Below are positions 13,165 through 35,755 of a stretch of 47,771 nt of DNA, piece by piece. Position 1 is the stretch's first letter. Every line of letters starts with the position of its first letter. The stretch is from the IMG/VR virus record IMGVR_UViG_3300014868_000001, positions 1 to 47,771 of that record, one strand, 5' to 3'. The notes beneath the pieces are model-generated. The model was not told the DNA's origin. It ran no database searches and was given only the letters and a program-made list of their open reading frames with translations. Origin of the DNA: a virus. The position numbers and the translations under genes were made by a program.

Positions 13165-13168
13165 CGCG

Positions 13169-13708: not shown

Positions 13709-13727
13709 CGGAAGGGAGATCCATCCG

Positions 13728-14786: not shown

Positions 14787-15932
14787 ATGATGGCCCGTCT
14801 GTGCCGCACGCTCGCGATTGTGCTCGTCCTGCTGCCAGGACTCGTTCACGCCCAGGTCTCCGCCGACACCACCACGGGTGTCAGGACCATCACGAGCGCG
14901 ACGTCCGGCGACGTGATTCTCGGCCCGCTGAGCGCTCGAGGGTCCGGCAGCGTTCAGCTCTACGGCACGTGGACTGGCACCTACGTGATCGAGGGCAGTA
15001 ATAGCAATAACTGCACGACCGGCACGTACGCCACGCTGCCAGGCACCTCGGAACTGACCTCGAACGGGCTGACGAAGATCGACGTGTCAGCGGTTCGGTG
15101 TATTCGCATCAACGATTCCGGATGGAGCTCCGGCACCACGAGCGTCATCATCGCTGCCAGTAGCGCGGGCGGTGGGGGCGGTGGTGGTAGCGTCGCGAGC
15201 GGTACGGTGGCGATTAGCCAGACCGGGAACGAGAACGCGGTGGATGTCCTGACGTCGGGCCTTCCAGCGGGTGCGTCAACCGCGGCGAATCAAACCTCTG
15301 AGATTGCGCTCATCACCGACATCGAGACGGATATCGACGACATCGAAACCCTGCTGACCACGATCGCGGGCGACACCACAGACATCGAGGCGGCGCTTGA
15401 GGCCATCCATTTTGTCGATGACGAAGACTTCTCGGATGGCGTCTCTGCGTTCGCGCTTGTCGGATGCGTGGCCGAAGCGACACCGACCACAGTCACTGAC
15501 GGAGACGTTGGCGCCTGCGCGATGACGGTTGGTCGCGCGGTGAAGGTGGCGCTTGCCAATGCGGACGGCTCGTTGGTGTCGCTGTTCTCGAGCGTGAACT
15601 CCAGCGAGTACTACATCTCCGCAGGCGCCACCGAAGACGAGAACGAAGTCGATGCCAACGCCGGCACGATGCTGAGCATCGTCGCGCGGAACAACCACGC
15701 CAGCGCGAACGCCTTCATCCGCTGCACCGATGACGATGCGGCAGGTAGTGCGCCTGCGACCGCTGTGGTCATCTACGAGCTGATGGTGCCCTTCGGTTTG
15801 CCAACCAGGGACGACAACATCGGCATCCCGTATTCGACGGCACTCACGTGCTGGATCGTGCTGGGCGAAGCCGATGACGACGTCGCGGAAGTCGCGGCGA
15901 ACGACGTGGTCTACGTGTTGAGGTATCAGTAA
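14787..15932 (+). CDS. secreted-type fibre-like protein with signal peptide
   Basis: A 381-residue protein if ATG 14787 is used (GAGGGAG precedes it). Residues 1-23 form a Sec signal peptide: positive start, hydrophobic core (LAIVLVLLPGL), VHA before a Q. The mature part is beta-rich and threonine/serine-rich, with a glycine linker (GGGGGGGS, about residue 134). A helical segment of repeated isoleucine/aspartate/threonine follows (ITDIETDIDDIETLLTTIAG, about 175-195), typical of trimeric coiled-coil fibre necks. The last 170 residues look like a globular tip. It lies among virion genes, so a fibre is likely, but the signal peptide is unusual for one. Confidence 0.65.
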   Translation: MMARLCRTLAIVLVLLPGLVHAQVSADTTTGVRTITSATSGDVILGPLSARGSGSVQLYGTWTGTYVIEGSNSNNCTTGTYATLPGTSELTSNGLTKIDVSAVRCIRINDSGWSSGTTSVIIAASSAGGGGGGGSVASGTVAISQTGNENAVDVLTSGLPAGASTAANQTSEIALITDIETDIDDIETLLTTIAGDTTDIEAALEAIHFVDDEDFSDGVSAFALVGCVAEATPTTVTDGDVGACAMTVGRAVKVALANADGSLVSLFSSVNSSEYYISAGATEDENEVDANAGTMLSIVARNNHASANAFIRCTDDDAAGSAPATAVVIYELMVPFGLPTRDDNIGIPYSTALTCWIVLGEADDDVAEVAANDVVYVLRYQ

Positions 15933-16346
15933 ATGGCATATAACCTCGCGACAATCGTTCAGAAGGACGCGCCGGCAGACGATGGCCGCGTACACATCGT
16001 GGTGGCATTCACCGGCAATGCTGGCGAGCCGCGCATTCTCCGAGACAAATACATCGCTGGAGAGTCAATCGCGGACATCCGGGCATGGGCACGCGCTGAG
16101 GCGGCAACCCTACTCGGGAAGAAGACCGTCGCGGACTTGCTGGCACTCAACGTGACACTGGATCTGACGCCTCCGGCCGGACCCACGGCGGCGCAGATTG
16201 CGCAGGCGGTGTGGCTGGAGAAGGCTCAGCGTCTCGTGCGGATGCGAGAACTGGCGCTCACCAACGCGACGGCCGTGACGAACTTCAACGCCTTGGTGGC
16301 GGATGTCAACGCGACGTATCTCGCGGCATACGCGGCGGTGACCTGA
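15933..16346 (+). CDS. hypothetical protein of the fibre module
   Basis: A 137-residue protein whose ATG directly follows the previous stop (TAAATG). A compact alpha/beta N-terminus (VHIVVAFTGNAGEPRILRDK) and a helical C-terminus (VWLEKAQRLVRMRELALTNA) are seen. The size, helical end and place directly after a fibre-like gene would suit a tail-fibre assembly protein, but no family motif is recognised. It has no signal peptide, unlike its neighbours on both sides. It overlaps the next gene by one base. Confidence 0.55.
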   Translation: MAYNLATIVQKDAPADDGRVHIVVAFTGNAGEPRILRDKYIAGESIADIRAWARAEAATLLGKKTVADLLALNVTLDLTPPAGPTAAQIAQAVWLEKAQRLVRMRELALTNATAVTNFNALVADVNATYLAAYAAVT

Positions 16347-16588
16347 TGAGGATTATTGGACTCGCCATCGCTGCAGTGACTGCGGCTGCCATCGTCTCGC
16401 TGGTCGCCGTCTGGTATACCACTCCAGCCGCGGCGCTCTCGCCTGAACAAGCGGCACTCGCCAAACTCTACGAGCGCGGCGTCAAGGCGGCTGCTCCCGC
16501 GTGTAGCTCGAAGGGCGCGAAGGTCATCACACTGCTCGGCAAGGTGGACGGGCAGGCCGTCACGTTCGTGGGGTGCGTGGAGCCGTGA
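16346..16588 (+). CDS. small exported or membrane protein
   Basis: An 80-residue protein with a hydrophobic N-terminal segment (residues 3-23: IIGLAIAAVTAAAIVSLVAV) that may be a signal peptide cleaved near TTPAAALS or an anchor. The soluble part holds two cysteines (PACSSKG, FVGCVEP) that could form a disulphide in an exported protein. The start overlaps the previous stop, and the stop overlaps the next start (GTGA). No family is recognised. Confidence 0.55.
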   Translation: MRIIGLAIAAVTAAAIVSLVAVWYTTPAAALSPEQAALAKLYERGVKAAAPACSSKGAKVITLLGKVDGQAVTFVGCVEP

Positions 16589-17277
16589 AGACCGCCGCGC
16601 TCATCCTCGCGTGTCTCCTGCTGTGGGCGCAGCCTGCCCAGGCACAACCCGCTATCGAAGGATCTGGGGGTAGCACCATCCCGCTGTCCGCAACGTGCGC
16701 AGGGACTAATAAGGTCCTGTATGCGTGGTCAACCAACGACGACGCCAACGATAACAACCATGTCCTCGTGTTCAACACCACCGAGACGATGACAGAGGTG
16801 ATCGAAAACATCGGCGCCGGTCGGTACATCGCCATGCACAGGCTGGTGAATCCCACATCGACAACCGCCAACATTACCGCGTCGTCTGGCACTCCAGGCA
16901 TCGTGGCCTATATATGCCTGTCGGGCGTTGATCAGGGAGATCCTGACGATGCCGCGCAATCGGAGAATAACGGAGGAGCACCGGCGGAAACGGCGAGTGG
17001 GTTGACTGTCTCAAGTGCCGTTGGGGATCTTGTCATCTCGGGGCTAGCCGCCAATAACAAAAACACAGGCTTCGCTACGGCCGCAGGTACGGGGCAGACC
17101 GAGCGTGTGGACGTGGGGGATACCTCGCTTGGCGTAGCGGTCAGCACGCAGACGGGTGCGGCGAGTGTCGTACCGAATTGGACGTGGACTGGCGCTGTGT
17201 CATTTGGTCATGTAGCGATGAACGTCAATGCCGCTGGTGGAGGCGGGGGCACACGCCGTCGTCAGGTGGTCGATTGA
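16585..17277 (+). CDS. exported beta-rich protein with signal peptide
   Basis: A 230-residue protein starting at GTG 16585 (GTGA overlap). Residues 1-21 are a clean Sec signal peptide (hydrophobic ALILACLLLWA, then AQA before QP). The mature part is a beta-rich domain full of A, G, T, S and N (VLYAWSTNDDANDNNHVLVF, GDLVISGLAANNKNTGFATA), resembling lectin-like or jelly-roll sandwiches. It ends in a glycine run and a basic tail (GGGGGTRRRQVVD). No enzyme motif is seen. It is coupled to the beta-helix protein that follows through a TTGA overlap, so the two are probably made together. Confidence 0.6.
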   Translation: MKTAALILACLLLWAQPAQAQPAIEGSGGSTIPLSATCAGTNKVLYAWSTNDDANDNNHVLVFNTTETMTEVIENIGAGRYIAMHRLVNPTSTTANITASSGTPGIVAYICLSGVDQGDPDDAAQSENNGGAPAETASGLTVSSAVGDLVISGLAANNKNTGFATAAGTGQTERVDVGDTSLGVAVSTQTGAASVVPNWTWTGAVSFGHVAMNVNAAGGGGGTRRRQVVD

Positions 17278-18866
17278 TTCGGACACTGCTGACACTCGCG
17301 GTGTTAGCCTGCGCTGGCTCCGCACAGGCGGCGGACCTGTGCGTCAAGGCTGGCGGCAGCGACGCGACTGCGAAGGCGTCCATCGTCTACGTCGCAGGCA
17401 ATGAAGCGGGCTCGACCTGTTGGGAAACCATCGGGCGGTCAGCGTGGGGTTCAACCGATCGGACCATGACGGTTGGCGCGCAAGCCGCCGCCGCTGGTGA
17501 CACGGTTTACATCTTCACCGGACCGTACACGCATCCGGCTGGGACCGGCGAGAACTTCGACCCCTATTACAACCCGGTCAACTCGGGCACGATGGGGAAC
17601 CCCATCGTCTTCCGCGCCGTGCCGGACGGGACGGTCACGCTCTGCGCCACTGACCTTGAACTGTTCAACGACGACCCGGATGGCAATCAGGGACCAACGC
17701 TCGGCGTCAACAACCGCGACTGGATCACCATCGGGCCTGGGTTCCTGCTTGATGAAGCGTGCGCGCCCACTCGCCCCGACATGGGGCCGGTGTCGATCAC
17801 GGACGCGACCGGGATCGTCTTCACCGGCAATACTCTCGTCGGCAACGAAGATGAGGATGCGTGGTGGGGCGACAATCACCCGGCTATCCGCGCGCAGACG
17901 GCTGACCAAATCACCGTCAGTCAGAACATCATCTCTGGTTTCTACAACACCGCTGCTGACGACCCCGAAGACGCACCGTGCTTAGAGACGTACACGACGG
18001 ACGAGATTCTTGTTGAGCACAACACCTGTTTTGATTCTGGTGGTGGGATCAACTTCAAGGGGAACACCGCCTCACCTGATACTCGCATCATCCGGTTCAA
18101 CCTGATTTATGGCGTGAGCACGGGGATCGTGATCCAGAACAACGGTGCCGATGCGGACGGGGAGACGCTGGTCTATCAAAACATCGTGCGGGATTGCGTG
18201 GCGGCGCCGACCGGCGCAGGCGAGGTCACGCTCGGGATCGGCGTCCACGGTTATGGCCTCGGCAGCGATCCGCAGAACCTCTATTTCGTAAACAACACGA
18301 TCGAGGACTGTCACGATGGCGTGGGTAGCGCCAACTTCTTCCTGAACGGCGGGCTCATCGCCGACGCCAATATCAAATGGTGGAACAACATCAGCGTTGA
18401 TTCCCAGTTCATGATCTACTGCGACAACGGCTGCGGGACGTCGGACGTGCAGGATCAGGCTGCGTTTGACGCTGAGCACAACCTCTATTTGACGTTCGAG
18501 ACGTTCGCCAACGATGGCAGCAATCGCACCTTCGCTACGTGGACCTCTGGCGGGTATGCGCAGGACGCGACTTCGCCAGCCAGCACCAGCACCACCGATC
18601 CGTTGTTCGTCAATCAGGCGACGAATGACCTTCACCTCCAGGGGGGCTCGACGGCGCTCACCCTCGGCCGAACGCTGACACTGATTCACGGCTCAAGCGG
18701 AGAAGTGGTGCCAGCGGGTGCCTACATCACAGGCGATGAAACCATCGGGGCTGGCGGTAGTGAGGAAGAGGAAGCGTCTGAGACGCCGAAGCGGCTCCCG
18801 CGTCCCTTGCAACGACTGATTGCCGCGCTGATGGTGCCGCCGATGCTGCACGCACCAGCGCCATAA
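17274..18866 (+). CDS. right-handed beta-helix protein with signal peptide
   Basis: A 530-residue protein starting at TTG 17274, overlapping the previous stop. Residues 1-19 are a signal peptide (TLLTLAVLACAGSAQA). The body shows regularly spaced N-x-I/V and G-I-x-F/I rungs (GIVFTGNTLVGNEDED, QITVSQNIISGFYNT, NLYFVNNTIEDCHDGVG), typical of pectate-lyase-like parallel beta-helices as in tailspikes and polysaccharide lyases. Several cysteines fit an exported protein. The C-terminus is acidic then basic. It may be a tailspike depolymerase or a secreted host-surface-modifying enzyme; catalytic residues cannot be assigned. Confidence 0.75.
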   Translation: MIRTLLTLAVLACAGSAQAADLCVKAGGSDATAKASIVYVAGNEAGSTCWETIGRSAWGSTDRTMTVGAQAAAAGDTVYIFTGPYTHPAGTGENFDPYYNPVNSGTMGNPIVFRAVPDGTVTLCATDLELFNDDPDGNQGPTLGVNNRDWITIGPGFLLDEACAPTRPDMGPVSITDATGIVFTGNTLVGNEDEDAWWGDNHPAIRAQTADQITVSQNIISGFYNTAADDPEDAPCLETYTTDEILVEHNTCFDSGGGINFKGNTASPDTRIIRFNLIYGVSTGIVIQNNGADADGETLVYQNIVRDCVAAPTGAGEVTLGIGVHGYGLGSDPQNLYFVNNTIEDCHDGVGSANFFLNGGLIADANIKWWNNISVDSQFMIYCDNGCGTSDVQDQAAFDAEHNLYLTFETFANDGSNRTFATWTSGGYAQDATSPASTSTTDPLFVNQATNDLHLQGGSTALTLGRTLTLIHGSSGEVVPAGAYITGDETIGAGGSEEEEASETPKRLPRPLQRLIAALMVPPMLHAPAP

Positions 18867-18877
18867 AAGGAGAGCGA

Positions 18878-19285
18878 ATGCGACGACTACTGTGCTGCTT
18901 GGTCCTGTTCCTGCCGGCGCTCGCGTCGGCTCAGACCCCGATCACGCGCGGGCCCGTGCCTGCCGGCGCCCGCGTCGCATACGAGACGCCAGACAACGTC
19001 ACCACGCTGACGCAAGCGGCGTCCTTCGAGGCGAGGTTCTACCGGAACGGGACGCCGCTGACCGCGCTCGTCAACGTGTCGTGTGCGCCCGCCGTGGCGC
19101 CACTGGTCGGGTTTACCTGCACATCGGTGCTGACGCCGTCGAATATCGATGCGCTCAATCAAGTGGGCGTGCACGCGTTGACGCTGTCGCTGTTTCGCCA
19201 GGACGTCGGGGAGGGTCCACACGGAGCCCCTTTTACCTTGACAACGCCGGCGGGTGTCCCTCGGGGGGGGCGACTTTTCCAGTAG
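18878..19285 (+). CDS. exported small protein, probably frameshifted
   Basis: A 135-residue open frame preceded by AAAAGGAGAG. Residues 1-18 are a signal peptide (RRLLCCLVLFLPALASA before Q). The mature part is a beta-rich domain (EARFYRNGTPLTALVNVSC, VGFTCTSVLTPSNIDALNQV). The frame ends shortly after a run of eight G (19263-19270). The -1 frame then continues with strong coding character to 19422 (see the separate entry). The full protein was therefore probably about 180 residues. Either a sequencing indel in the G run, a real mutation, or programmed slippage would explain this. Confidence 0.6.
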   Translation: MRRLLCCLVLFLPALASAQTPITRGPVPAGARVAYETPDNVTTLTQAASFEARFYRNGTPLTALVNVSCAPAVAPLVGFTCTSVLTPSNIDALNQVGVHALTLSLFRQDVGEGPHGAPFTLTTPAGVPRGGRLFQ

Positions 19286-19422
19286 GGACCGAGCTCCCTC
19301 AGAAGATCAAGCTCACGGCGTGGGACACGTGGCGGATCGGCATGGAAGCGAACGGGTGGCGCCTGGTCGTGACGCGGTGGAACACAACGTGGTGGTGGGG
19401 CTACACACGGTGCGACCGCTGA
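19263..19422 (+). other. G8 run and -1 frame continuation of the preceding gene
   Basis: After eight consecutive G residues (19263-19270), the -1 frame encodes GATFPVGTELPQ, KIKLTAWDTWRIGMEANGW and RLVVTRWNTTWWWGYTRC before a stop at 19422. It has high third-position GC and no start of its own in a sensible place. The upstream frame meanwhile hits a stop within five codons of the run. This is the usual signature of a homopolymer frame break or of ribosomal slippage. Confidence 0.65.
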
Positions 19423-19595: not shown

Positions 19596-19608
19596 GGGAG
19601 ATCCGAGC

Positions 19609-19956: not shown

Positions 19957-20141
19957 AGCGGCTCCGCGTCGTGCTCGACGGCGGCCCGGTCGAAGAGCCC
20001 TTCGAGGCCGTCGTGCTCGAGGACCACGAGCTCGCGGAGATCGTGCGGATGAAAGCGGCGCTGCGGACCATTAGCCAGGCTGCGGACGGCACGCCGATCG
20101 CTGACCTTGCCACGATCGCCCGGGAGGCGTTACCACGGTGA
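19953..20141 (+). CDS. small hypothetical protein before the head-tail adaptor
   Basis: A 62-residue protein from GTG 19953, overlapping neighbours at both ends. It is acidic and regular: two short strands (LRVVLDGGPVEEPFEAVVLE), then helices (HELAEIVRMKAALRTIS). No motif is recognised. Its position directly before the adaptor gene and full translational coupling suggest a small connector or chaperone. Confidence 0.55.
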   Translation: MKRLRVVLDGGPVEEPFEAVVLEDHELAEIVRMKAALRTISQAADGTPIADLATIAREALPR

Positions 20142-21085
20142 CGAGACGAGAATTCCTCGACGACTTCTTGGCGTTCGTCGGTGAGAGCGAGGACGACGAC
20201 GCCCGTGACGTGGCCGAGCGGTTGCTGAACCGCGCGATCGACGTCATCTACATGAAGCACGCCTTCCGGCAGTTTCGCGCGCCGACCGCGCACGAAATTA
20301 CGCTCGTCGCCGGCACGCGCTCGTATGCGCTCCCCTCGTGGTTTGGACGGCCGCTGCCGCGGACGCCGGCGTTCAACCTGACCGACCGCGCGCCCGTGCC
20401 GTTCGAGGACGAGGTACTGCTGAAGCAGAGCGACGCGACGATCGGCACCTCCCTCGAAGCCACCGGCGCACCAGAATGCGCGTATCTCGGTGGCGTCAGT
20501 GCGCTCGAGGTCGAGGTCAGCGCGAGCGGGACCGCGCTCGAGGTCGTCTCGGACAGCTCGAGCGATACCGATGTGGTCCTGTCGATCGAAGGCATCGACG
20601 CGAACAACCGGCAGAAGCGCACGAAGGTGACGCTGACCGGGACCATCGCGGTCGCGCTCGGCACGTGGAAACCGCCGGTGATGTTCGTGGGGAAGAGCTT
20701 TATCGCGGCGGTGGATGCCCCGACCGAGTTCACCACGAGCCGCGGAACCGTGACGGTGCGCGTGGCCGCGGCCGGCACGACGCATCTCACGCTGCAGGCC
20801 GATGAGAGCTCGAAACAGCAGCTGATGGTCAACGTCACGCCACTGCCGAACGCGACGAAGGTGCTCGCGCTGCCGTTCCTCATGAAGCCGAAACGGCTGA
20901 TGTACGATTCCGACGCGCTGCCCACGTGGTGGGACTCGGCCATCTGGGAAGAGATGTTGATTCAGTGGCGCGTCAACGCCGGCGAGTTGGCGACCGATAT
21001 CAACGTGCCGCGGCCGGAGTTCATCAACCTCTTGTCGTTCGACAACACGATCGGACCACCGATCACGAAGCGGCCGTTCCGATGA
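20138..21085 (+). CDS. putative head-tail adaptor protein with Ig-like insertion
   Basis: A 315-residue protein from GTG 20138. The N-terminus is helical (REFLDDFLAFVGESEDDDAR, AERLLNRAIDVIYMKHAFRQ) and followed by ITLVAGTRSYALPSWF, the pattern of adaptor proteins that sit below the portal. Residues about 120-230 are a beta-rich, threonine/valine-rich insertion resembling an Ig-like domain (VTLTGTIAVALGTWKPPVMF). The C-terminus (LMYDSDALPTWWDSAIWEEM) returns to helices. Identity is inferred from pattern and from the following tail gene. Confidence 0.65.
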   Translation: MTRREFLDDFLAFVGESEDDDARDVAERLLNRAIDVIYMKHAFRQFRAPTAHEITLVAGTRSYALPSWFGRPLPRTPAFNLTDRAPVPFEDEVLLKQSDATIGTSLEATGAPECAYLGGVSALEVEVSASGTALEVVSDSSSDTDVVLSIEGIDANNRQKRTKVTLTGTIAVALGTWKPPVMFVGKSFIAAVDAPTEFTTSRGTVTVRVAAAGTTHLTLQADESSKQQLMVNVTPLPNATKVLALPFLMKPKRLMYDSDALPTWWDSAIWEEMLIQWRVNAGELATDINVPRPEFINLLSFDNTIGPPITKRPFR

Positions 21086-23178
21086 GCCTGACGAGCCCGC
21101 GGTTCTCCGCCACGATTCGGAGCTTCTCGCCTGGCTATCTCGACACGCCAGAAGACGACACGCTGCCGCTCGGCGCGTTGCAAGAGGCGCGGAACTGCTT
21201 CCTCACGAAGATCGGACCCGGTGCGCAGGCGCGCGCTCTGCTCGGGAAACGAGACGGGCATCGGCTGCTGAACGCGACCGCGATCGCGGCCGGCAAGCGG
21301 GTGGACATCGTCGAGTTCGTGCGGGTGGGCGCCGATCCTGAGCTCGTGGCGGTCTGCGACGGCGCGGTCTACTCGTGGGACGGCGCCGCGTGGAACGCGG
21401 TGACAGGCGGCACGGGGTTCACGTCGAACACGCCGTGCCGATTCAGTCAGGCGAAGAACAACCTGTTCATCACCGATGGCACGGTGCAGAAGCGGTACAA
21501 CGGGACCGCGTGCTTTCCGATTGGGAACGCCGCGCCGGGCACGGCGCCGACGCTCGCAGTCGGGACGGCGACCGGGGTCACCGGCACGTATGTGGGGTAT
21601 TGGGTCGGCTACGACCCGGCGATGGACCACGAGACGAGTCCGAGCCCGCTGTCGGCAGAGGTCGCGTTCACCGACGACAAGCGCGATTGGACTCGGCCGG
21701 CGCACACGCTGCCGGCGAACTATACGCACTGGCGTGTCTACGCGCGGAACGTGACGACGACCGAGAACAACTTTTTTCGCGCCGGGACGCAGGTGATCGG
21801 GACGGCGACGTTGACGGAGTCGCTGAGCGACACCGCGCGCCGCGATCTCGGCGTCGGGCCGCTGTCGTCCGTCAACGATCCACCGCCGTTATTGGCGTGG
21901 ATGTCGTTCTGGCAGGGCTACGCGATCGGCGCTGAGCCGGGTGGTGCCGACTACCTCGTGAGCAAGCAGGGCGATCCTGAGAGCTGGCATCCACGTGACC
22001 GGCTGCCGGTGCGACGCAACCAGGCGCTGCGCAGCGGGAAACCGTGGCAGGACCGCGCGTTCATCCTGCAGACCGACACGCAGAGTTTCCGGCTCCTCGG
22101 GGACAAGCATCCCTTCCAGTTGAAGGAGCTCCACGACAGTCTCGGGAACGTCTGCTTCGACGCAGCCGTCGAAGGCCCGAATTGGTTCTATGCGTGGGAC
22201 CGCGTGCGCGGACCCTACCGGACGAACCTCGAGGTCTTCCAGCCACTAGCAGACGGACGCATCGAGACGTTGCTCGCGACCGTCAATAAGCTGTTCCTCG
22301 ACGACATCCGCTGTGTGCGGTACAAGCAGGGTGAACTCATTATTTGGAGCCTGCCGACACTGGTGAATCGTAAGCGGACGCTGATCGCGTGGCACGAGCG
22401 GCTCGAGTGCTGGCTGCCGCCGATTACCGGGTTCGAGTTCAATTCCATGTCGCCGTTCACGGACGAGACCACCGGCGCGATCGGGCTCTACATGGGCGAC
22501 TATTGGGGTCGCGTGTACGAGATGTTCTCGGGCCGTGTCGACGGGCCGCCGAGCGGCACGGTCACGGCGGCGATTACCGGCGCATCGTCCTCGACCGTGA
22601 CCGCGTCGGCGGCGACGTTCTTCACGACTGGCTCTGCGCTCGCGGGGATGCCGGCCGTTGTGATTTCGCCGGCGGGCACGGAGCAGTGGGTTCGCATTCA
22701 GAGCAACACCGGGACGGTCCTGACGCTCGACGTCGTGAACGGGCCGTCCCTGTCGCCCGTGCCGGCGACCGATGGCACGTGGACGGTGATCGTCGGCGCC
22801 ATCGACTGGTACGGCTGGCTCGGACGGATGGATTTCCAGGCGCCGGATCTGATGAAGCGCGGCGGGTTCCTCTTCGTCCAGGGGACGGCCGAGAGCGAAT
22901 CGCATACGCTCATCATGCGCGGACGGTTCAACGGGGCACCGTCGATCGGTCGCACGTGGAGCATCACGTTTCCGCCGTCCGGTGGCGTGTGGGGCGTCTC
23001 GGCGTGGAGTGAAGCCTTGTGGGGCGCGTCCGGCACGCGGTTCATGCGGAAGCGGCGCCTGTCGCGCGGGTTCCATACCGTGCAAATCGGCTTCAAGAAC
23101 TACTACCCGAATCAACCCTTCGTGCTGTCGTTGATCAAGGTCACGGCTGACCCGTTACCGCGCCGGGTGGTGGGCTGA
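21082..23178 (+). CDS. tail protein, gp10-like stabilisation / tail-tube B type
   Basis: A 698-residue protein, ATG 21082 overlapping the adaptor stop. It is beta-rich with repeated short motifs of propeller-like proteins (ELVAVCDGAVYSWDGAAWNA, NNLFITDGTVQKRYNG, FYAWDRVRGPYRTNLEVFQP), matching podovirus tail-stabilisation proteins that plug the portal. An inserted segment at about 490-570 is a small beta domain (VTAAITGASSSTVTASAATF). The C-terminus (RKRRLSRGFHTVQIGFKNYY) looks like the tail-contacting end. Function is inferred from family pattern and its place between the adaptor and the fibre genes. Confidence 0.75.
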   Translation: MSLTSPRFSATIRSFSPGYLDTPEDDTLPLGALQEARNCFLTKIGPGAQARALLGKRDGHRLLNATAIAAGKRVDIVEFVRVGADPELVAVCDGAVYSWDGAAWNAVTGGTGFTSNTPCRFSQAKNNLFITDGTVQKRYNGTACFPIGNAAPGTAPTLAVGTATGVTGTYVGYWVGYDPAMDHETSPSPLSAEVAFTDDKRDWTRPAHTLPANYTHWRVYARNVTTTENNFFRAGTQVIGTATLTESLSDTARRDLGVGPLSSVNDPPPLLAWMSFWQGYAIGAEPGGADYLVSKQGDPESWHPRDRLPVRRNQALRSGKPWQDRAFILQTDTQSFRLLGDKHPFQLKELHDSLGNVCFDAAVEGPNWFYAWDRVRGPYRTNLEVFQPLADGRIETLLATVNKLFLDDIRCVRYKQGELIIWSLPTLVNRKRTLIAWHERLECWLPPITGFEFNSMSPFTDETTGAIGLYMGDYWGRVYEMFSGRVDGPPSGTVTAAITGASSSTVTASAATFFTTGSALAGMPAVVISPAGTEQWVRIQSNTGTVLTLDVVNGPSLSPVPATDGTWTVIVGAIDWYGWLGRMDFQAPDLMKRGGFLFVQGTAESESHTLIMRGRFNGAPSIGRTWSITFPPSGGVWGVSAWSEALWGASGTRFMRKRRLSRGFHTVQIGFKNYYPNQPFVLSLIKVTADPLPRRVVG

Positions 23179-23495: not shown

Positions 23496-23534
23496 ACCGC
23501 GCACCACAGGGACCGGGCCAAAGGAACCTGTTCG

Positions 23535-24221
23535 ATGCGTCTCCTGAAACGGCTCCTCCCGCTCGTCGTCGTCCTCGTCATGGGCGGCGCGACGCTCGTG
23601 GTCGCACAGATCACGGTCCCATTCCCCACGTTCACGGCCGGGACGACCATCGATCCCGACCAGATGAACAGCAACTTCTCGACGCTGTCATCGCAGGCGC
23701 TCAATCGCACGGGCGGAACGGTCACCGGCAACATCGCGGCGAGCGCGAACGTCACCGTCGATGGCGCCGACATCTCCGACTACCTCGACGGGTCCGGCAA
23801 TCTCACGGTGCCTGGGACGTCCGCGTTCACGGGTGTCGCCACGTTCACGGCGGCGATTCCTGGCGCGACGATGACCACGCCGACGTTCACGAACTACGCC
23901 GAGACGTACGCGACGGCCAGCATCAGCACGAACACGCTGGCGCTGAACCTCGACAACGGCAATCACTTTTCGATTGCGCTGAACGCCAACATCACGACGT
24001 TCACGGTTTCGAACATCCCGACTGGTAAAGCGGTCACCGTCACGATGATCTTCACGGCCGATGGGACGATCCGCACGATCACGTGGCCGGCGTCGGTGAA
24101 GTGGCCGGCGGCGACGGCGCCGACGATGACGGGCACGAACGGCAAGGTGGACATCATCACGCTCTACACCGTTGATGCGGGTACCACGTGGTACGCCGTC
24201 CTCGGAGGCCAGAACTTCTAA
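23535..24221 (+). CDS. tail-fibre-like protein with signal peptide
   Basis: A 228-residue protein after AAAGGAAC. Residues 1-24 form a signal-peptide-like start (LLPLVVVLVMGGATLVVA before Q). A fibre stretch follows: FTAGTTIDPDQMNSNFSTLS and LNRTGGTVTGNIAASANVTV, the last being the classic repeat of phage tail fibres. The C-terminal 90 residues are a beta domain (FTVSNIPTGKAVTVTMIFTA, TITWPASVKWPA) of the fibre-tip type. A receptor-binding or structural fibre is likely. The signal peptide is shared with neighbouring genes. Confidence 0.7.
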   Translation: MRLLKRLLPLVVVLVMGGATLVVAQITVPFPTFTAGTTIDPDQMNSNFSTLSSQALNRTGGTVTGNIAASANVTVDGADISDYLDGSGNLTVPGTSAFTGVATFTAAIPGATMTTPTFTNYAETYATASISTNTLALNLDNGNHFSIALNANITTFTVSNIPTGKAVTVTMIFTADGTIRTITWPASVKWPAATAPTMTGTNGKVDIITLYTVDAGTTWYAVLGGQNF

Positions 24222-25129
24222 TGCTGCGTCGGTTCGTCGTCGCGCTCGTCGCGCTGCTGCTGCTCGCGCAGCCGTCGTCGGACGCGATCGGCCTGAAGCT
24301 GATCGGCGCGGACCTCAAGGTCACGTACTCGGGTGCGGCCAGCGGAACCCATAACTTCCGCGCCGGCGCGCTCGTGCTCACGACGCCAGGCAACTACACG
24401 CTCGTGTTCAACCACACGGCCGCGGCGGTCAACGTGAAGGGGGTTGCTGGTGGTGGCGGTGGCGATGACGGACACGCGGATTCCACTCGTTCGTTGGGTG
24501 GCGCCGGGGGCGGCGGTGGGGCCAGCAATACGACCGGGGTCTCGGTCACGTTGTCGTCGCTCACGTTCTCGGCGTCAGTTGGTGCGGGTGGCACGACCGG
24601 AGTCGGCGGTGGCACCACGCTGTTCCGGCTTCCTGCCTCAACGATCTATCTCCAACTCAATGGTGGCGCCACAGGCGTCAGTGAAGCCTCTGACCCTGAC
24701 ATACCGACGTCCACGGGCGGCGCTGGCGGTACGGCGGCCGTTGGGGCCGGCGGTGTCAACGGCACGGCCGGCGGGCCTGGCGGGCTGGAGTTCCTCTCGG
24801 TCGGCTCCGTGGAAGGCGTCGATAACGCCTCTGGCGCGGCCGGCGGCGGGGGTGGGGGATACGCCACGCAGAGCGGGGAGACCGGCGGCAACACCGGCAG
24901 CCAAACCGGCGGCGCTGGGGGTGGGGCTGGTAACGGTGGGGCGACTGCGTCCGGCGCCGGTGGTTTCGCTGGTAGTGGTGACTCCGGCGGTGGCGGTGGT
25001 GGTGGTGGTGGTGTCAGTCTCGGCGGCGGGTTTCGCGGCGGCGGCGGTGGCGGCGGTGGCGGCGCCCGTAGTTCCAGCGGCGATGGGGGCACCGGCGGTA
25101 ACGGTGTCCTTGTGATTCAGAGGCTGTAG
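24221..25129 (+). CDS. glycine-rich adhesin-like protein with signal peptide
   Basis: A 302-residue protein, ATG 24221 overlapping the previous stop. Residues 1-22 are a signal peptide (FVVALVALLLLAQPSSDA). A short beta part is followed by about 220 residues dominated by glycine, with runs of up to nine glycines and repeated GGAGG units, then the terminal GGNGVLVIQRL. Glycine-rich domains ending in such a hydrophobic strand occur in fibre-tip adhesins, where poly-glycine II helices form a lattice (as in T4-like gp38). Receptor binding is inferred. Confidence 0.65.
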   Translation: MLRRFVVALVALLLLAQPSSDAIGLKLIGADLKVTYSGAASGTHNFRAGALVLTTPGNYTLVFNHTAAAVNVKGVAGGGGGDDGHADSTRSLGGAGGGGGASNTTGVSVTLSSLTFSASVGAGGTTGVGGGTTLFRLPASTIYLQLNGGATGVSEASDPDIPTSTGGAGGTAAVGAGGVNGTAGGPGGLEFLSVGSVEGVDNASGAAGGGGGGYATQSGETGGNTGSQTGGAGGGAGNGGATASGAGGFAGSGDSGGGGGGGGGVSLGGGFRGGGGGGGGGARSSSGDGGTGGNGVLVIQRL

Positions 25130-25369: not shown

Positions 25370-25371
25370 CG

Positions 25372-25875: not shown

Positions 25876-25889
25876 ACGGAGTAGAGACG

Positions 25890-27152: not shown

Positions 27153-27155
27153 GCG

Positions 27156-28214: not shown

Positions 28215-28216
28215 CC

Positions 28217-31200
28217 GTGGGGAGCCCAATCCGTTTCACGCTCGACGACATCGACCAGCCGTCGCCGGCTGGTGTGATGCGTTTCTCCCTCGATGAGATC
28301 GAGCCCGAGAATCGTCCCGCGGTGCCGCGTGGGATGCCGAACATCCCACTACCGCCACCGGCGCCGCTCCCTGAACCACATGCGGAGTTGATGCCGGCGC
28401 ATCAACCGCCCGCGTTGCCGTCCCTCAATGACATCCTCGAGGGCACGCCGGCGGAACGTCCACGCATTCCGGTCGCTCCGCTGCCGTCGCACGAGGCTGT
28501 TGAGCCCATCGTGCCGAGCTCCGGCGAGCAGCTCCTGCGAGCGCTGATCGGTGAACGCGCGTCGTCTCTCGTTGGTCAGGGAGTGCGGTCCTTCACACAG
28601 GGATTCGTCGGGACGCCGGCGGAAGGACTCGCGGCGACCGGCCAGTGGTTCGGGTTCGTTGATCCGGAGGTGCTGAAGAACGTGCAGGCGTCGAATGCCC
28701 ATGCGTTCCGCGAGGTCGAGCAGTTCGGCAGCGTGCTCGACGACCCGAAGGGCACGCTTGGGAATCCCGCCTGGTGGGCCCGTGCGGGTGGTCAGGTTGC
28801 CGGCTCTGTCGCCAGCCTGATGACGGCCGGCACGCTCGGCGGGAAGCCGGCCGCGGTGGTGGGTGAGTCGTGGCTCGAAGGCGCCACGGCGTATTCCGAT
28901 GCCATCAAGCGCGGGGCGACACCGATGCAGGCGGGGCTTGTGGCCGCCGGCGTGGTGGCGGTGAACCTGCCGTTCCTGGCCGTCACGAATACGCCCATCT
29001 TCGACGCGCCGACGAAGAGTGCACTGCTGAACGTCGTGCTCCGCTCCGTCGTGGAAGGCGGGCAGGAGGCCGGGCAGGGCGCCATCACGAATGCGGCGGC
29101 GCGCGCCGGCTACGACCCGAATCAGGAGGTCTTCACGAAGGATCTCTTGGACGAGGCGATCGTCGGCGGTATCGTGGGCCCGCTGGCCGGCGCCGGCGTC
29201 GACCGACTGACGCGGCCGTCCCTTCCAGTCACGCCACGTGCACGGACCCAGGCTGATCCGCCGTCGTGGCCGGATGACGGCGCCGGCGAACAGGACCGGC
29301 GCGCGCCGATTCCGGAGCTCGAGGCCCAGACACGTGCCGCGATCGAGCGCGAGGCGGCTGCGGCTGCAGCTGCGGCCATCGCGCCCGAACCTGTCGTCTT
29401 CCGGCCTGAGGAGATTGACACGCCCGCGCCGGCGGCGCAGACTATTGCTGATGAGTCCGCTCAACCGGAAGTTGGCGAGCGAGCTGGTGAGGAAGGGTTT
29501 GACACCCTCAGCGGCGTTGCGCAGAGCCTCCCAACCGGACGCGAATCTGCCCGCCAAACCGAAGCCCGCCGGCAGCAGCACAACGCCGACGTCTTCGGAC
29601 ACGTCCTCACCAAAGCCCGCGAAGTAGATCCCGCCGTCGACGAGACGGACCTCCGCGCCGAGTTCGACTATCGCCTGAGCGTGCTCGAGGAGCTCGATCA
29701 CGAGTACCGCGAGAGCGGGCACAATCCACGACTCCTACTCGAACAGATCGCAAAGTCCGGTGGGATCAGCCTCGACGCCGAGAAGAATGGAGGGCTGAGC
29801 GGAGAGCTGCGCTGGTTGCGCGAGAGCGCTGCGGGTCCGTACGGCAATTTCGCCGGCGTGCCCAACGTGTTCCGAACCAAGTCGAACGATAAGGTCAGTG
29901 GCAAGCGCATGACCGGGCTCGGCTTGGATGACATGCAGCGGCGGCTCAGCGAATACCCCGAGTTCAGCCACATCGAGAGCATTCAGGATCTGCTCGACGC
30001 CCTGTCGGATATCGCTCGTCTCGGAGACGTCGGCGCGCGTGGTGCCGCCTTCCCCGGGACGAAAGAGCTCTACACCCGCGCCAACATGAAGGGGGAACAA
30101 CCCTGGTGGACAGACTCGTGGCGCGCACCGGTTGAAGACGTCGTCGAGACGAGCGAGACGGACGAGGCCGATCTCGACGCGGATACCACCACGTTCAACG
30201 TGGACGAGATCGAAGCGCCGGTGGCCGAACCACCCGGGAAGCCGAGTTATCGACCTGGCGACATCGTTGCGTTCAAGGGCTCACAGAACGGCGAGGCTGA
30301 AGTCCGCGAGGTCTTCTACGTCAAGGACAAGAAAAAAGGCGACCGATGGCGTGTGCGCGTCGTGTTCCCGCAGAAGCGAGACGGAGAGATCGGGCCCGCC
30401 GGTGCCATCGTCGAGTCGAATCGCGACCTCACGGATCTGCAGTTCCTGAGAGCGGCGCAAAGTGAAGCGTCGGATGAAGGGATCGGTGATGAGCCGATCA
30501 CGTTCGACGTCGATGAGATCGAGGGTCGCGGGCCAAAGTCGATGGCGTTGCCCCGCAACAAGCGGTCGCAGGGCACGGACCTCTTCGCAGCCGGCGAGTC
30601 TGATACCGACACGCTCGATACCGGCGAGCACCAGCCGCGGCTTCCCGTCGTCGGCAAGGTGCGTGAGCAGGACGTCGAGACACCAGAATTCGACGCGCCG
30701 TTCTCGCTGACGCCAGAAACCGATCGCTCGAAGAAGGGGAAGCAGACGACGCTCTTCGACTCGAAGGCGAAGGAGGTGTCGACGGGCCTGACGAAGTCGT
30801 TGCCGGCGAGGAAGCCCGGTCAGCCGACGATTCCACTCACGGGCCGGATGCGACACACCGAGATCCTAAAGAACCTGCAGCGGGTGCTCGGCAATGTCCC
30901 GACGCGCACCGGGCACTTCAATCAGCAGGCGTACGGCATCTACAAGACCGACGTCCGCGCGATTCGATTGAAGGTCGCGAACAACCTGCAGACGTTCTTC
31001 CACGAGGAAGGGCACCACGTCGATTTCGCGATACTCGGGATCGACCGCAAGGATGCGCGGTGGCAACAGGAACTGATCGATCTGGGCCAAGCGACGTCGC
31101 GGCCGTCGTACACGAAGACCGAGCAGCGGCAGGAAGGTGCGGCCGAGTTCCTACGGTTATGGCTCACCGAGCCGGCGACCGTGAAGAGCCGCGCGCCGAA

Positions 31201-34033
31201 CTACACGGCCGAGTTCGAGCGCCGACTCAACGACCATCCCGAGCTCCGAGACGGATTGCTCGAGGTGCGCGAGGACATTCAGGGACTCATCAGCCAAGAC
31301 CCGGCGACGCGCGGCCGACTGCGTATCGATCGACGCACAGCTCGAGAACGCAAGCGAGAGGCTCTGCGCGAGGCCGCTCGAGATCCACACGCGGTGATCC
31401 GCAAGGTCGCGTCCGTCACGATCGATGACCTCCACCCGTTGCGCGCGGCCGTCGAGCAGATGCGCGACGGGCGAGACCTCGAGTACCGCATGAACGCCTA
31501 CGTCCTGGCGCGCGTGGCTCGAGGCTCCGCCGGCAAAGCGGAAGCGTTCCTCGAGCACGGTGTCCGCGGTCGGAACGGGAAGTTCATCGGGCCGTCTCTC
31601 GCGGACGCGCTCGAGCCGGTCCGCGACCATCTCGACGTCTTCGGTGACTACCTCGTGGCGCTGCGGGCCGCGGAGCTCCACAACCGCGGCATCGAGCCCG
31701 GCATGGCGAAGGACGAGGCGCAGGGCATCATCACGGAGACCGAGGCACGGAGCGACTTCCAAGCGTTCGAGCAGGCCCGTGACGCCGTCTATAGCCATCA
31801 GGACGCGATCCTCGAGTACGCCCGGCTGTACGGCGCGATGAGTAAGGGGCAACTGAAGGCCATCAAGCAGTTGAATCGCGCGTACGTCCCGATGCAGCGT
31901 GTGCTCGACGCGACCGAGGAGTCGCTCCGCGGCGTCGCGAAGCGCATCGCGAACCGCGAGCTCCCCGTCAAGCGTATTCGTGGGTCCGGCCGCGACATCA
32001 TCAATCCGCTCGAGTCGATGGTGAAGAACGCCTTCGCGATCGTCGACATGGTCGAGAAGAACCGCGCGATGCAGGCGCTCGTCCGCCAGGCGGAGAGCTC
32101 CGCCGGCTCGGCGCGGTGGATCGAGGCGATTCCGACACCGAAGGTCGCGACGCGCTTCAACCTGTCCGAGCTCACGAAGGATGTCCGCGCCGCGCTCGTG
32201 AACAATGGCGCCGTCGATCCCGACGCGCTGCCGTTCAATCTCGACGAGGCGCTCGACGCGCTCGTGACCGTGTGGACGCCGGCGACGTTCGCGAAGGGGA
32301 ACGAGCAGATCGTGACGGTGCTCCGGAACGGTGTCCGGCAGTTCTGGCAGGTGAACGACGACGCGCTCTATCAGGCGCTGACCATGATGGGCCCGCGCAC
32401 GACCTCGCGGTTGATGCAGTTGTTCAACAAGCCGACGAAGCTCCTGCGCGCGGCAGCCACGTTGACGCCGGGTTTCATTCTGCGGAATCCCGGGCGTGAC
32501 ACGTTGGTCGCGTACATGCAGTCGCGCTATGGGTTCATCCCGGTGTACGACACGCTCAAGGGGCTCATCAGCCAGGTGCGTGGCGACGAGGATGCGAAGC
32601 TGTTCTACACGTCCGGCATCGCACAAGCGGCGATGGCGGCACAGCATCGCGACCAGCGACAGACCGCCGTGAAGCAGGTGACGAAGGCCGGCGGGCTCCG
32701 CGGCGTGCCGCTCAATCCGATCGAGCTCCTCCGCGCGTTCTCGCAGTGGACCGAGACAGCGACACGGCTCGGAGAATTCAAACTCGCGCTCGACGCCGGC
32801 GGTGTCGAACGTGGTGTCTGGCGCCGGCTGCTCAGCACAGGCCAGCGGGCGCCGGTGTCGGAAGAGTCCATCACCAAAGCGACGATGGCGGCGCGCGACG
32901 TGACGACCGACTTCTCGAGGGCCGGCGATCTCGCGCGTGAAGTGAACGAGTTCAAGGCGTTCTTCAACGCGGCCGTGCAGGGGAAAGTCCGCATGATCGA
33001 GACGATCGCGCGTGACCCCGGCGGCACGGCACTGAAGGCCGCCACGATCGCGCTGTTCTCCGCGGCCGTCTGGGCGCTGAACGAGGACGACGAGGAGTAT
33101 CAGGAAAAAGAGGCGTGGGAGAAGTCGTCGTATTGGTTCGTGCCGTTCCCTGGTGGCGGGGTCACCATCAACGGCTACGAAGTGAAGTGGCTGAAGATCC
33201 CGAAACCGTTCGATTGGGGATACGCGGCCGACATCACCGAGGCGGCGCTCGACTACATGCGCCAGGGCGACGCGACGCGGTTCCGCGAGATGAAAGAACA
33301 GCTCGTGGGCACGAACCCGGCGCAACTGATTCCCGCGCTCCTGCCGACTGGCATCCTGCCGCTCGTCGAGGTGTGGGCGAACTACTCCGCCTTCCGCGAC
33401 ACGCACATTGTGCAGCCGTGGGATCTCGACCTCGAGACCGACTTGCAGTACTCGGAGTGGACGAGCACGGTCGCGAAGCAGCTCGGTCAGGTGATTCCCG
33501 TGGCGCCGGCACACATCGATCACCTGATATTCGGATTCACTGCGGGGTTCGGGCGTGGTGTCGTCTCCGGCATCGACACGGCGCAAGGGTTGCTCGGGAT
33601 CGTGCCGCGCAGGGACATGCCGGCCGGACACGTGCAGCAGCTGCCGATCGCCGGGACGTTCCTGTCGGATGGATCGTTCGGATCCGGCGCACAGAGCCTG
33701 CAGGACCTCTACGACCTCGCTGACGCGCTCGAGAAGGTCGAACGGAGCGTGGCTGAGGATCTGAAACAGGGCAACCGGGCGAGCGCTGTCGAGCGCACTG
33801 AACGCGCTGAGGCCAGGTTACCGATCGCCTGGGGCGAGCGCGGACGCATCACGGCAGCCCGGCAGAGTCTGAAGGATCTCGCGCCACGGATTCGACAGAT
33901 TTACGCGGCGCCGGCGAGCGAGGTAACGCCGGAACAAAAGCGCGAGCAGCTCGATGCCGTGCGGGCGCAGATGGTCAGCATTGCCCGCCGGGCTCTTGGG
34001 AAGTCCGCGCTGCCGGAGCGGCAGGCCCGATGA
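28217..34033 (+). CDS. giant (1938-residue) polyvalent protein with zincin motif, putative ejection protein
   Basis: Starts at GTG 28217. Residues 1-770 are mostly disordered and proline-rich and contain five short motifs of the form F-x-[LVP]-[DE]-[DE]-I-[DE] (starting at residues 7, 23, 395, 660 and 763). A folded patch at about 200-330 includes hydrophobic helices (AGLVAAGVVAVNLPFLAVTN). Residues 929-933 give HEEGH within TFFHEEGHHVDF, with a downstream EGAAEF at 973-978 that could supply the third zinc ligand. The remaining 950 residues are helical, with one hydrophobic helix near 1615 (AATIALFSAAVWAL). Size, helicity and position match large polyvalent or internal virion proteins injected with the DNA. 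Protease activity is inferred from the motif only. Confidence 0.75.
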   Translation: MGSPIRFTLDDIDQPSPAGVMRFSLDEIEPENRPAVPRGMPNIPLPPPAPLPEPHAELMPAHQPPALPSLNDILEGTPAERPRIPVAPLPSHEAVEPIVPSSGEQLLRALIGERASSLVGQGVRSFTQGFVGTPAEGLAATGQWFGFVDPEVLKNVQASNAHAFREVEQFGSVLDDPKGTLGNPAWWARAGGQVAGSVASLMTAGTLGGKPAAVVGESWLEGATAYSDAIKRGATPMQAGLVAAGVVAVNLPFLAVTNTPIFDAPTKSALLNVVLRSVVEGGQEAGQGAITNAAARAGYDPNQEVFTKDLLDEAIVGGIVGPLAGAGVDRLTRPSLPVTPRARTQADPPSWPDDGAGEQDRRAPIPELEAQTRAAIEREAAAAAAAAIAPEPVVFRPEEIDTPAPAAQTIADESAQPEVGERAGEEGFDTLSGVAQSLPTGRESARQTEARRQQHNADVFGHVLTKAREVDPAVDETDLRAEFDYRLSVLEELDHEYRESGHNPRLLLEQIAKSGGISLDAEKNGGLSGELRWLRESAAGPYGNFAGVPNVFRTKSNDKVSGKRMTGLGLDDMQRRLSEYPEFSHIESIQDLLDALSDIARLGDVGARGAAFPGTKELYTRANMKGEQPWWTDSWRAPVEDVVETSETDEADLDADTTTFNVDEIEAPVAEPPGKPSYRPGDIVAFKGSQNGEAEVREVFYVKDKKKGDRWRVRVVFPQKRDGEIGPAGAIVESNRDLTDLQFLRAAQSEASDEGIGDEPITFDVDEIEGRGPKSMALPRNKRSQGTDLFAAGESDTDTLDTGEHQPRLPVVGKVREQDVETPEFDAPFSLTPETDRSKKGKQTTLFDSKAKEVSTGLTKSLPARKPGQPTIPLTGRMRHTEILKNLQRVLGNVPTRTGHFNQQAYGIYKTDVRAIRLKVANNLQTFFHEEGHHVDFAILGIDRKDARWQQELIDLGQATSRPSYTKTEQRQEGAAEFLRLWLTEPATVKSRAPNYTAEFERRLNDHPELRDGLLEVREDIQGLISQDPATRGRLRIDRRTARERKREALREAARDPHAVIRKVASVTIDDLHPLRAAVEQMRDGRDLEYRMNAYVLARVARGSAGKAEAFLEHGVRGRNGKFIGPSLADALEPVRDHLDVFGDYLVALRAAELHNRGIEPGMAKDEAQGIITETEARSDFQAFEQARDAVYSHQDAILEYARLYGAMSKGQLKAIKQLNRAYVPMQRVLDATEESLRGVAKRIANRELPVKRIRGSGRDIINPLESMVKNAFAIVDMVEKNRAMQALVRQAESSAGSARWIEAIPTPKVATRFNLSELTKDVRAALVNNGAVDPDALPFNLDEALDALVTVWTPATFAKGNEQIVTVLRNGVRQFWQVNDDALYQALTMMGPRTTSRLMQLFNKPTKLLRAAATLTPGFILRNPGRDTLVAYMQSRYGFIPVYDTLKGLISQVRGDEDAKLFYTSGIAQAAMAAQHRDQRQTAVKQVTKAGGLRGVPLNPIELLRAFSQWTETATRLGEFKLALDAGGVERGVWRRLLSTGQRAPVSEESITKATMAARDVTTDFSRAGDLAREVNEFKAFFNAAVQGKVRMIETIARDPGGTALKAATIALFSAAVWALNEDDEEYQEKEAWEKSSYWFVPFPGGGVTINGYEVKWLKIPKPFDWGYAADITEAALDYMRQGDATRFREMKEQLVGTNPAQLIPALLPTGILPLVEVWANYSAFRDTHIVQPWDLDLETDLQYSEWTSTVAKQLGQVIPVAPAHIDHLIFGFTAGFGRGVVSGIDTAQGLLGIVPRRDMPAGHVQQLPIAGTFLSDGSFGSGAQSLQDLYDLADALEKVERSVAEDLKQGNRASAVERTERAEARLPIAWGERGRITAARQSLKDLAPRIRQIYAAPASEVTPEQKREQLDAVRAQMVSIARRALGKSALPERQAR

Positions 34034-34266
34034 CGTGTGCGACGTGCGGCGCCGGGATGACGGAGCTGCGCGTCGAGGTGGATCTCTCCGAGCCGCCACT
34101 TCACCTGTACTGGTTGACGAAGCGACTCGGTCAGCCGGCGCGATTGGCGCCGGCGAACGTCGCGCTCTGCGACACGTGCCAGCGTGCCGACCTCGTGCGG
34201 CCGGCGCCGGCACCTGTCGCCCCTGACGCGAGGGGTCTCGTGGTGAGACTCTTCTTTGGCGGCTGA
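34030..34266 (+). CDS. small zinc-ribbon protein
   Basis: A 78-residue protein overlapping the giant gene by 4 bases. C3, C6 (CATCG) and C58/C61-type partners (LCDTCQRADLV, about residues 55-60) form two CxxC pairs, the zinc-ribbon pattern. Between them lies a basic amphipathic stretch (LHLYWLTKRLGQPARLAPAN). A nucleic-acid or protein-binding role is inferred. It has no signal peptide, unlike the next gene. Confidence 0.6.
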   Translation: MTCATCGAGMTELRVEVDLSEPPLHLYWLTKRLGQPARLAPANVALCDTCQRADLVRPAPAPVAPDARGLVVRLFFGG

Positions 34267-34276
34267 AGTAGGCACC

Positions 34277-35755
34277 ATGAAACATCTTGCGCTGCTACTC
34301 ATGTTCGTCGTCGCCGCGCCAGTCTCCGTCTCCGCGCAAGTCACCATCCCCGCTGGGGATTCGATCCAGGACGCGGTAAACCTCAACCCGGCCGGGACCA
34401 CCTACATCCTCGGCACGGGCTATCACCGCATCACGACGGGCGTCACGCTCAAGAATGACGACATCGTCGAGGGCGTGATGGGGACTATCGTCTCGGGCGC
34501 TCGAGTCCTCACGGGCTGGACCGCCCTGGATGGCCGCTGGTATGTGACCGGCCAGACGCAGCAGGGCACGGCCGACATCCCGGCCGGGTCCTGCCTACCG
34601 GCCTACCCGCGGTGTAACAACCCAGAAGACCTGTTCTTCGACAACATCCAGAAGTACCACGAGGACGCCCTGGCCGACGTCGGGCCCGGAGAGTACTTCT
34701 TCGACTACGCCGCCGATCGCATCTACGTCGGAGACGACCCGACGAGCGCCACCGTCGAGACGAGCGTCACGCCGCGGCCGTTTCTCCATGGCGGCGCCAC
34801 GGGCGTCACGATTCGCTACCTGACCATCGAGAAGTTCGCGGCGCCCACGGGCGACGGGGCGCTCGGGCTCTGGTCCGGCTGGCTCGCCTTCCAGAACACG
34901 ATCCGGTGGAACCACGGCGGCGGCATCTATCAGGTCACGCTCAGCACGGCGACGCAGAACGTCGTGACCTACAACTGCGGCATGTCCATGATGGGCGCCG
35001 GCAGCGGCATCCTCGTCTTCCAGAACGAGATCAGCTACGGCAACGTGATGGCCGGGAGCGCCCAGACGTGCGGCTACGACGTCCTCTGGGGCGCTGGGTG
35101 CTCCAAGTGGGTATCCACGCAGGATCTGATTGTTCGAGGCAACTACGTCCACGACTGCTACGGTCCTGGCATCTGGGCCGACATCGACAACGAAGACGGA
35201 CTCATTGAAGACAACGTCGTCTCGTTCTGCCGACGGTCTGGCATTTTCTGGGAACTCAGTTTCGCGGCCGTCATCCGCAACAACACGCTGACCCAGAACG
35301 GGCTCGACACCATTTATGGGTTCTACCCGACGAACGGCGGGATCGAGGTCACGGCCGCCGCGAACGTCGAGGTCTACGGAAACCTGCTGTACGACAACTA
35401 CAACGGGATCATGGTCATGGACGACGACCGGAACGGCGCGATGGGCGAGTTCAATTCGGTGAACGTCTACATCCACAACAACCTGATCGACCAGCGCAAC
35501 ATCCCAGGGACCAGCGGGTACAACGGGCTGATGGATTTCGAGGACAACACCCCGACCGGGCCAGCCTTTCAGCCGATGGCAAACAACCGATGGGCGAACA
35601 ATACCTATTGCCTGGGGGCTGGCCCGCTCTTCTTCTCCTGGGAGGGCGAGGACCTGACCGCGGTTGAGTGGCGGGCGCAGGGTCAGGATACGGCTGGCAA
35701 CTTCGCGTGCGGGGTCGGGCCACCGGTTCGGTTGCGTCTGATCAGCGTGCGGTAG
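34277..35755 (+). CDS. second right-handed beta-helix protein with signal peptide
   Basis: A 492-residue protein from ATG 34277. Residues 1-21 form a signal peptide (LALLLMFVVAAPVSVSA before Q). The body has beta-helix rungs (GVTIRYLTIEKFAAP, GILVFQNEISYGNVM, NVEVYGNLLYDNYNGIMVMD) like pectate lyases and polysaccharide-degrading tailspikes, and a cluster of aromatic and acidic residues that could bind sugars. It is the last gene of the late operon and converges on the minus-strand lysogeny block. It resembles the gene at 17274 in overall fold and export signal but not closely in sequence. An acidic-residue active site cannot be assigned. Confidence 0.75.
   Translation: MKHLALLLMFVVAAPVSVSAQVTIPAGDSIQDAVNLNPAGTTYILGTGYHRITTGVTLKNDDIVEGVMGTIVSGARVLTGWTALDGRWYVTGQTQQGTADIPAGSCLPAYPRCNNPEDLFFDNIQKYHEDALADVGPGEYFFDYAADRIYVGDDPTSATVETSVTPRPFLHGGATGVTIRYLTIEKFAAPTGDGALGLWSGWLAFQNTIRWNHGGGIYQVTLSTATQNVVTYNCGMSMMGAGSGILVFQNEISYGNVMAGSAQTCGYDVLWGAGCSKWVSTQDLIVRGNYVHDCYGPGIWADIDNEDGLIEDNVVSFCRRSGIFWELSFAAVIRNNTLTQNGLDTIYGFYPTNGGIEVTAAANVEVYGNLLYDNYNGIMVMDDDRNGAMGEFNSVNVYIHNNLIDQRNIPGTSGYNGLMDFEDNTPTGPAFQPMANNRWANNTYCLGAGPLFFSWEGEDLTAVEWRAQGQDTAGNFACGVGPPVRLRLISVR

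Follow-up and report, generated by a model that had tools for sequence, protein, structure and literature searches.

Conserved signal-peptide-type leaders on appendage-type genes in the virion module of an uncultured podovirus-type phage clade

The sequence studied here (the window) is the whole IMG/VR virus record IMGVR_UViG_3300014868_000001, 47,771 bases in length, and our subject is a set of genes in its virion region whose products begin with leaders resembling signal peptides of the general secretory (Sec) pathway. A first-pass annotation listed eight such genes; all eight are open frames on the plus strand with hydrophobic N-termini. Leaders were scored by a hand-made rule (charge, hydrophobic core, residues at -3 and -1) applied to every possible start, with a cut-off of 6.5 for counts and a looser one of 5.5 for the count of variable slots. 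Six window genes combine a positive n-region, a hydrophobic core, and small residues at -3 and -1 with a score above the cut-off. The annotation was right that the leaders are real, as seven of the eight genes have a convincing or plausible Sec/signal peptidase I leader: clear in 14787, 16573/16585, 17274, 18878, 23535, and 34277, weaker in 24221, and ambiguous in 16346. The clean A-x-A motifs before Q that it described are also present, with an A^Q cleavage site (^ marks the predicted cut) in five of these genes. The leaders are of the signal peptidase I type; a lipoprotein (signal peptidase II) reading was rejected, as a lipobox with cysteine at +1 is absent from all eight genes.

The first gene (14787..15932) encodes 381 residues, with a signal peptide (score 7.4; ..LLPGLVHA^QVSA), a sugar-binding-like domain, and a C-terminal domain; it has six mature cysteines and the Shine-Dalgarno site AGGGAGA. 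The small protein at 16346..16588 has two cysteines and a 20-residue hydrophobic stretch followed by TTPAAA^L. Its cleavage site is ambiguous, and the leader may be an uncleaved anchor rather than a signal peptide; the start overlaps the preceding stop (TGATG). The next gene (16573..17277) begins with GTG at 16573 or 16585, the latter in a GTGA stop/start overlap, and is predicted to be cut at AQA^Q (..LLWAQPAQA^QPA; score 8.6), leaving two mature cysteines. The 530-residue protein at 17274..18866 is a probable right-handed beta-helix with ten mature cysteines (score 7.6; ..LACAGSAQA^ADL), read from a TTG start that overlaps the preceding stop (TTGA). A 135-residue protein of single-domain type follows at 18878..19285 (score 8.7; ..LPALASA^QTP; Shine-Dalgarno site AAGGAGA; two mature cysteines).

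Further downstream, the tail-fibre gene (23535..24221; Shine-Dalgarno site AAAGGAA) encodes a signal peptide ending at A^Q (..ATLVVA^QIT), a short module, and a phage fibre C-terminal domain (PHROG tail fibre family phrog_9017, E 6e-18). It overlaps (TAATG) the glycine-rich leader protein gene at 24221..25129, whose leader (..LLLLAQPSSDA^IGL) scores below the cut-off. The last of the set (34277..35755) is a right-handed beta-helix protein of 492 residues with nine mature cysteines (PF13229, E 3.9e-16; score 7.0; ..APVSVSA^QVT). Thus, where the first-pass annotation named two beta-helix proteins, 34277 is clear and 17274 weakly so, and where it used fibre and glycine-rich labels, 23535 is a true fibre and the glycine-rich match of 24221 is sub-threshold (E 0.013). 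AlphaFold models reached a predicted local distance difference test score of 31 for 34277 (single sequence) and 41 for 17274 (three sequences); a fold search with the latter matched beta-helix glycan enzymes, none better than E 0.02, a weak hint of such a fold. Compared with tailspike depolymerases, which would be expected to have a right-handed beta-helix, 34277 thus shows the fold by Pfam and 17274 only by a low-confidence model and weak fold matches. No viral relatives of 34277 were found in a search with this protein as the query.

The rule recognised 15 of 16 textbook signal peptides, 14 of them above 6.5. In eight control phages (T7, P22, BPP-1, epsilon15, LUZ24, Mel-JY34, ctEqG8, and BL198) it found no leader in any of the 122 virion-module genes, and when the N-terminal residues of the window's own virion proteins were shuffled, the score was reached in 4 of 4,800 trials.

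Relatives of the window were gathered by capsid and terminase searches, and their contig records were fetched and scanned for leaders; a nozzle-only search for relatives found none. The clade has a conserved gene order (terminase, portal, scaffold, capsid, four small genes, a variable slot, adaptor, nozzle, a small gene, fibre, a second variable slot, and internal proteins). It is the variable slots that hold leader genes, with 40 of 81 slot genes scoring at the 5.5 cut-off (a few of these being anchors or spanin-like). The restriction of leaders to the virion module is marked: across nine clade genomes, including the window, 29 of 158 virion-module genes score at 6.5, against 5 of 326 elsewhere (Fisher p 7e-11). 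In one relative (G006), a glycine-rich gene with a signal peptide occupies the slot of 24221.

The fibre family is the best place to ask whether the leaders are conserved. The fibre gene after the nozzle starts alike in every member, with a leader, A^Q, and the module F..GT..D..VN.NF..L..ALNRTGGT, downstream of which C-terminal domains have been exchanged between members. Each of the 12 distinct clade members that match the window's nozzle has the signal peptide, as does the distant G021. The same leaders had been suggested for a search in relatives, and this search bore them out: the fibre signal peptide is kept although its sequence has diverged, and all six aligned members have A and Q at the cut. 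It had also been proposed that starts lying after the leaders in homologues would count against them. No such starts occur inside the clade, but four distinct contigs that have the fibre module without a nozzle match begin at a methionine directly before the module. As these unrelated phages start the module at methionine, the leader has been either added or retained in a lineage-specific way. In addition, phages that share just the C-terminal domain of 23535 lack a leader in all examples checked. Secreted proteins of Myxococcota have the same combination of signal peptide and F..GT..D..VN.NF start.

Homologues of other leader proteins carry leaders as well. Those of 17274 (L120-L122; 32-35% identity) all have diverged signal peptides, although two of the three are near-duplicates. 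Signal-peptide-bearing homologues of the 14787 type occur in G006, L121, and W01, and one of 16573 in L121. At locus L121, homologues of 14787, 16573, and 17274 lie side by side, all with leaders, and after them comes a small leader protein in place of 18878; similar small signal-peptide proteins stand beside 17274 homologues. The genome that contains L121 (G407) has end repeats and a terminase without a match to the window, so we conclude that the set moves between phage types. The window 14787 protein itself ends in a different C-terminal domain from the L121/W01 type. This latter domain occurs at 35 viral loci, its cysteines are kept in all 31 examined, and about 25 of the 26 loci with a complete 5' end have a signal-peptide-like leader (three judged by eye). 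A search of the phage record collection did not return the domain, and neither did one of 284 Myxococcota genomes, which lacked a positive control and so shows little.

Proteins that fold in an oxidising compartment tend towards even numbers of cysteines. We counted 44 mature leader proteins, 39 of which contain cysteine, and the number is even in 32 of these 39. The corresponding values in the same genomes are 49 of 108 for conserved virion proteins without a leader and 172 of 415 for all other genes (leader proteins versus all other genes, Fisher p 8e-7). A cultured phage provides one comparison in which leader and cysteines travel together: gp15 of Octadecabacter Antarctic DB virus 2 (OANV2), a homologue of the 14787 type (E 6e-7), has neither signal peptide nor cysteine, whereas its G006 homologue has a signal peptide and four mature cysteines.

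The rest of the genome identifies the phage type. Positions 1-123 are identical to 47649-47771, a 123-bp terminal direct repeat from which we conclude that the genome is complete; terminal repeats also occur in relatives (123 bp in G023, 100 bp in G020). On the plus strand lie the terminase large subunit (4750..6507; phrog_979, E 1e-38), the portal (7430..9835; phrog_156, E 3e-9), the major capsid protein (11042..12385; phrog_14242, E 4e-42), and a large polyvalent/internal virion-type protein of 1,938 residues (28217..34033; PF18857 LPD38, E 9e-29). Two clade markers, also on this strand and conserved in order and position, are an adaptor-like gene (20138-21085) and a tail nozzle/stabilisation-type gene (21082-23178), with putative functions assigned from position and phrog_511. 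Terminase, portal, capsid, and nozzle stand in the conserved order of podovirus-type phages, which points to a short-tailed morphology. Among phage records, the capsid has seven matches only, the best being an uncultured podovirus genome at 38% identity, and the portal matches solely in the genome with that best capsid match (38%). There is no nucleotide match between the window and cultured phages, and we found no cultured phage carrying this leader-gene set.

Several other features of the group deserve mention. The genes at 13728-14111 and 14143-14718 (plus strand) are adjoining paralogues of one small domain and both are kept across the clade; the 14143 product begins with a membrane-type stretch that is not a clean signal peptide. 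In G002, the N-terminus of the major capsid protein is itself signal-peptide-like, MKNRMSLAGTLVLLMSGQASA^H (L004 9938-11284; G002 12445-13791). We rejected a capsid leader as a general rule, as it occurs in G002 only, the arm before MPGSD being short and variable or missing in other members. Short post-fibre genes with a hydrophobic N-terminus and a coiled-coil-like remainder (G002 23306, G011 14410, G017 23126, G014 18779, G019 23482, and G023 22857) are possibly spanin-type lysis proteins. A large serine recombinase of integrase type (Resolvase, Recombinase, and Zn-ribbon domains; 36125-37846, minus strand) suggests a temperate phage. The window also encodes a 321-residue frame with a GroES/Cpn10 domain at residues 107-192, mid-protein (1959-2924), and a tRNA-Met gene in the non-virion part (43013-43089). 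One close relative (L039, G015:C398; capsid 77%) is a 31.9-kb contig in a Myxococcales metagenome-assembled genome, which may be a host hint or a binning error; Myxococcota yielded three further, weaker matches.

The textbook view is that tailed phages assemble entirely in the cytoplasm, and fibre-like parts are normally made inside the cell. We nevertheless take the leaders to be export signals, because they are conserved while diverged in sequence, are absent from control phages, and are associated with even mature cysteine counts; the same evidence lends partial support to the first-pass suggestion of secretion by the infected cell, without favouring any one of the proposed uses (coating, receptor masking, capsule degradation, or assembly in the periplasm). 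The appendage-type set is thus probably exported by functional Sec signal peptides, cut by signal peptidase I, folded under oxidising conditions, and met by particles at lysis, although actual export, cleavage, disulfides, timing, and destination are things that we infer. Late in infection, the host Sec system would export the fibre, sugar-binding-like, beta-helix, and glycine-rich proteins across the inner membrane, and signal peptidase I would remove the leaders at A^Q. The proteins would then fold in the oxidising periplasm, many with disulfides, while heads and tails would form in the cytoplasm and particles would encounter the exported proteins at lysis.

What would happen at that point is less clear. 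In other phages fibre attachment can be a late step, and there is close to an even chance that the fibre attaches to the particle at lysis, as its conserved place in the virion block and its fibre domain would suggest. Somewhat less probable is that the set works unattached, on the surface glycans of debris and of nearby cells, which it would bind or trim; the secreted counterparts in bacteria and the set's transfer between phage types fit this. The most far-reaching version, a tailed-phage lineage that finishes its particles outside the cytoplasm by attaching Sec-exported, periplasm-disulfide-folded fibres and appendages to heads and tails at lysis, we regard as tentative and less likely than not.

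Several observations weigh against export as the explanation. The leader calls come from a hand-made rule rather than a SignalP-type predictor, the enrichment and parity tests count related genes as independent, and by family the parity excess is weaker (roughly 17 even of about 22 cysteine-bearing families). Individual proteins also depart from the pattern: the count is odd in 34277 and in G023_15831 (15 cysteines), and the window fibre has none. The CV-1-33 homologue of the 14787 type is leaderless yet has two cysteines, so the association of leader and cysteine is only a tendency. Finally, location outside the cell or in the virion is a prediction from sequence, in an uncultured group.

Of the alternatives, the one that survives best is that the proteins are secreted accessories that do not become part of the particle at all; able to bind or cleave glycans, they would be freed at lysis and would then loosen the matrix, take up receptors on debris, or keep competitors out. 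We give this a substantial chance, though well short of even. The Myxococcota secreted proteins that share the signal peptide and VN.NF start, one of which continues into collagen-like repeats, indicate that the module need not imply virion attachment. The presence of the set in G407, with its unrelated terminase, resembles an exchangeable cassette, and the conserved leaderless gene 23178, which sits between nozzle and fibre, could be a separate tip. However, the leader genes occupy conserved slots inside the virion block, 23535 ends in a known phage tail-fibre domain, and unattached copies would compete with the phage itself for adsorption. We consider it unlikely that the leaders are mere relics, derived from secreted proteins of bacterial donors and left uncut or unused on virion parts assembled in the cytoplasm. 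Related N-terminal modules do occur in bacterial secreted proteins, and leaderless forms serve as fibres in other phages, but a relic should decay, and here charge, hydrophobic core, and A^Q are kept in every aligned clade member despite divergence; the even-cysteine bias of the mature proteins is likewise unexpected. Less probable still is that the leaders stay uncleaved and anchor assembly, or the proteins themselves, in the inner membrane. The hydrophobic stretches of 16346, 14143, and 19717, none with a clear cleavage site, and the spanin-like short post-fibre genes of several relatives would fit such a role, but the short h-regions and AxA^Q sites of the main set are those expected of cleaved leaders. 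The weak Shine-Dalgarno site before 34277 and the TTG start of 17274 might suggest wrong starts or chance hydrophobic N-termini, but we reject this as very improbable given the stop/start overlaps, Shine-Dalgarno sites, conservation, and clean phage controls.

If the favoured explanation, Sec export of the appendage-type set, is true, export signals and paired cysteines across a phage group would imply that assembly follows a divided route or that a whole secretome is produced systematically late in infection. We found nothing relevant on signal peptides of virion proteins in the open-licence literature, and the leader genes of this clade provide testable sequences. There are practical cautions: an expression host would export the product of a fibre gene cloned with its native start, and particle-only analysis may miss proteins in the lysate.

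Known systems resemble this one in part. In P22, a host protease cuts the N-terminus of the virion protein gp7 (record note), but this protease is OpdA rather than signal peptidase, and the protein serves in ejection. The uncultured Podoviridae sp. ctLwi270 (MW202554; W01) has distantly related capsid and portal proteins and, after the portal, signal-peptide proteins of 846 and 195 residues; it differs in lacking a nozzle match and in its capsid identity of 38%. In the podovirus isolate OANV2 (PMC9239159), compared here as a gene product only, gp15 combines a sugar-binding-like domain with the C-terminal domain of the 14787 type and its gene adjoins a nozzle-type gene, but it differs from the window 14787 in having neither signal peptide nor cysteines. 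Fibres of the phrog_9017 type (such as Roseobacter phage CRP-13 gp46, Cronobacter phage GAP52_016, and Pseudomonas phage PSA28) share the C-terminal domain of 23535 and, unlike it, have no leader in any example checked. The Myxococcota secreted proteins, like the fibre, place a signal peptide directly before the same short module, and unlike it they are chromosomal, with one running into collagen-like repeats.

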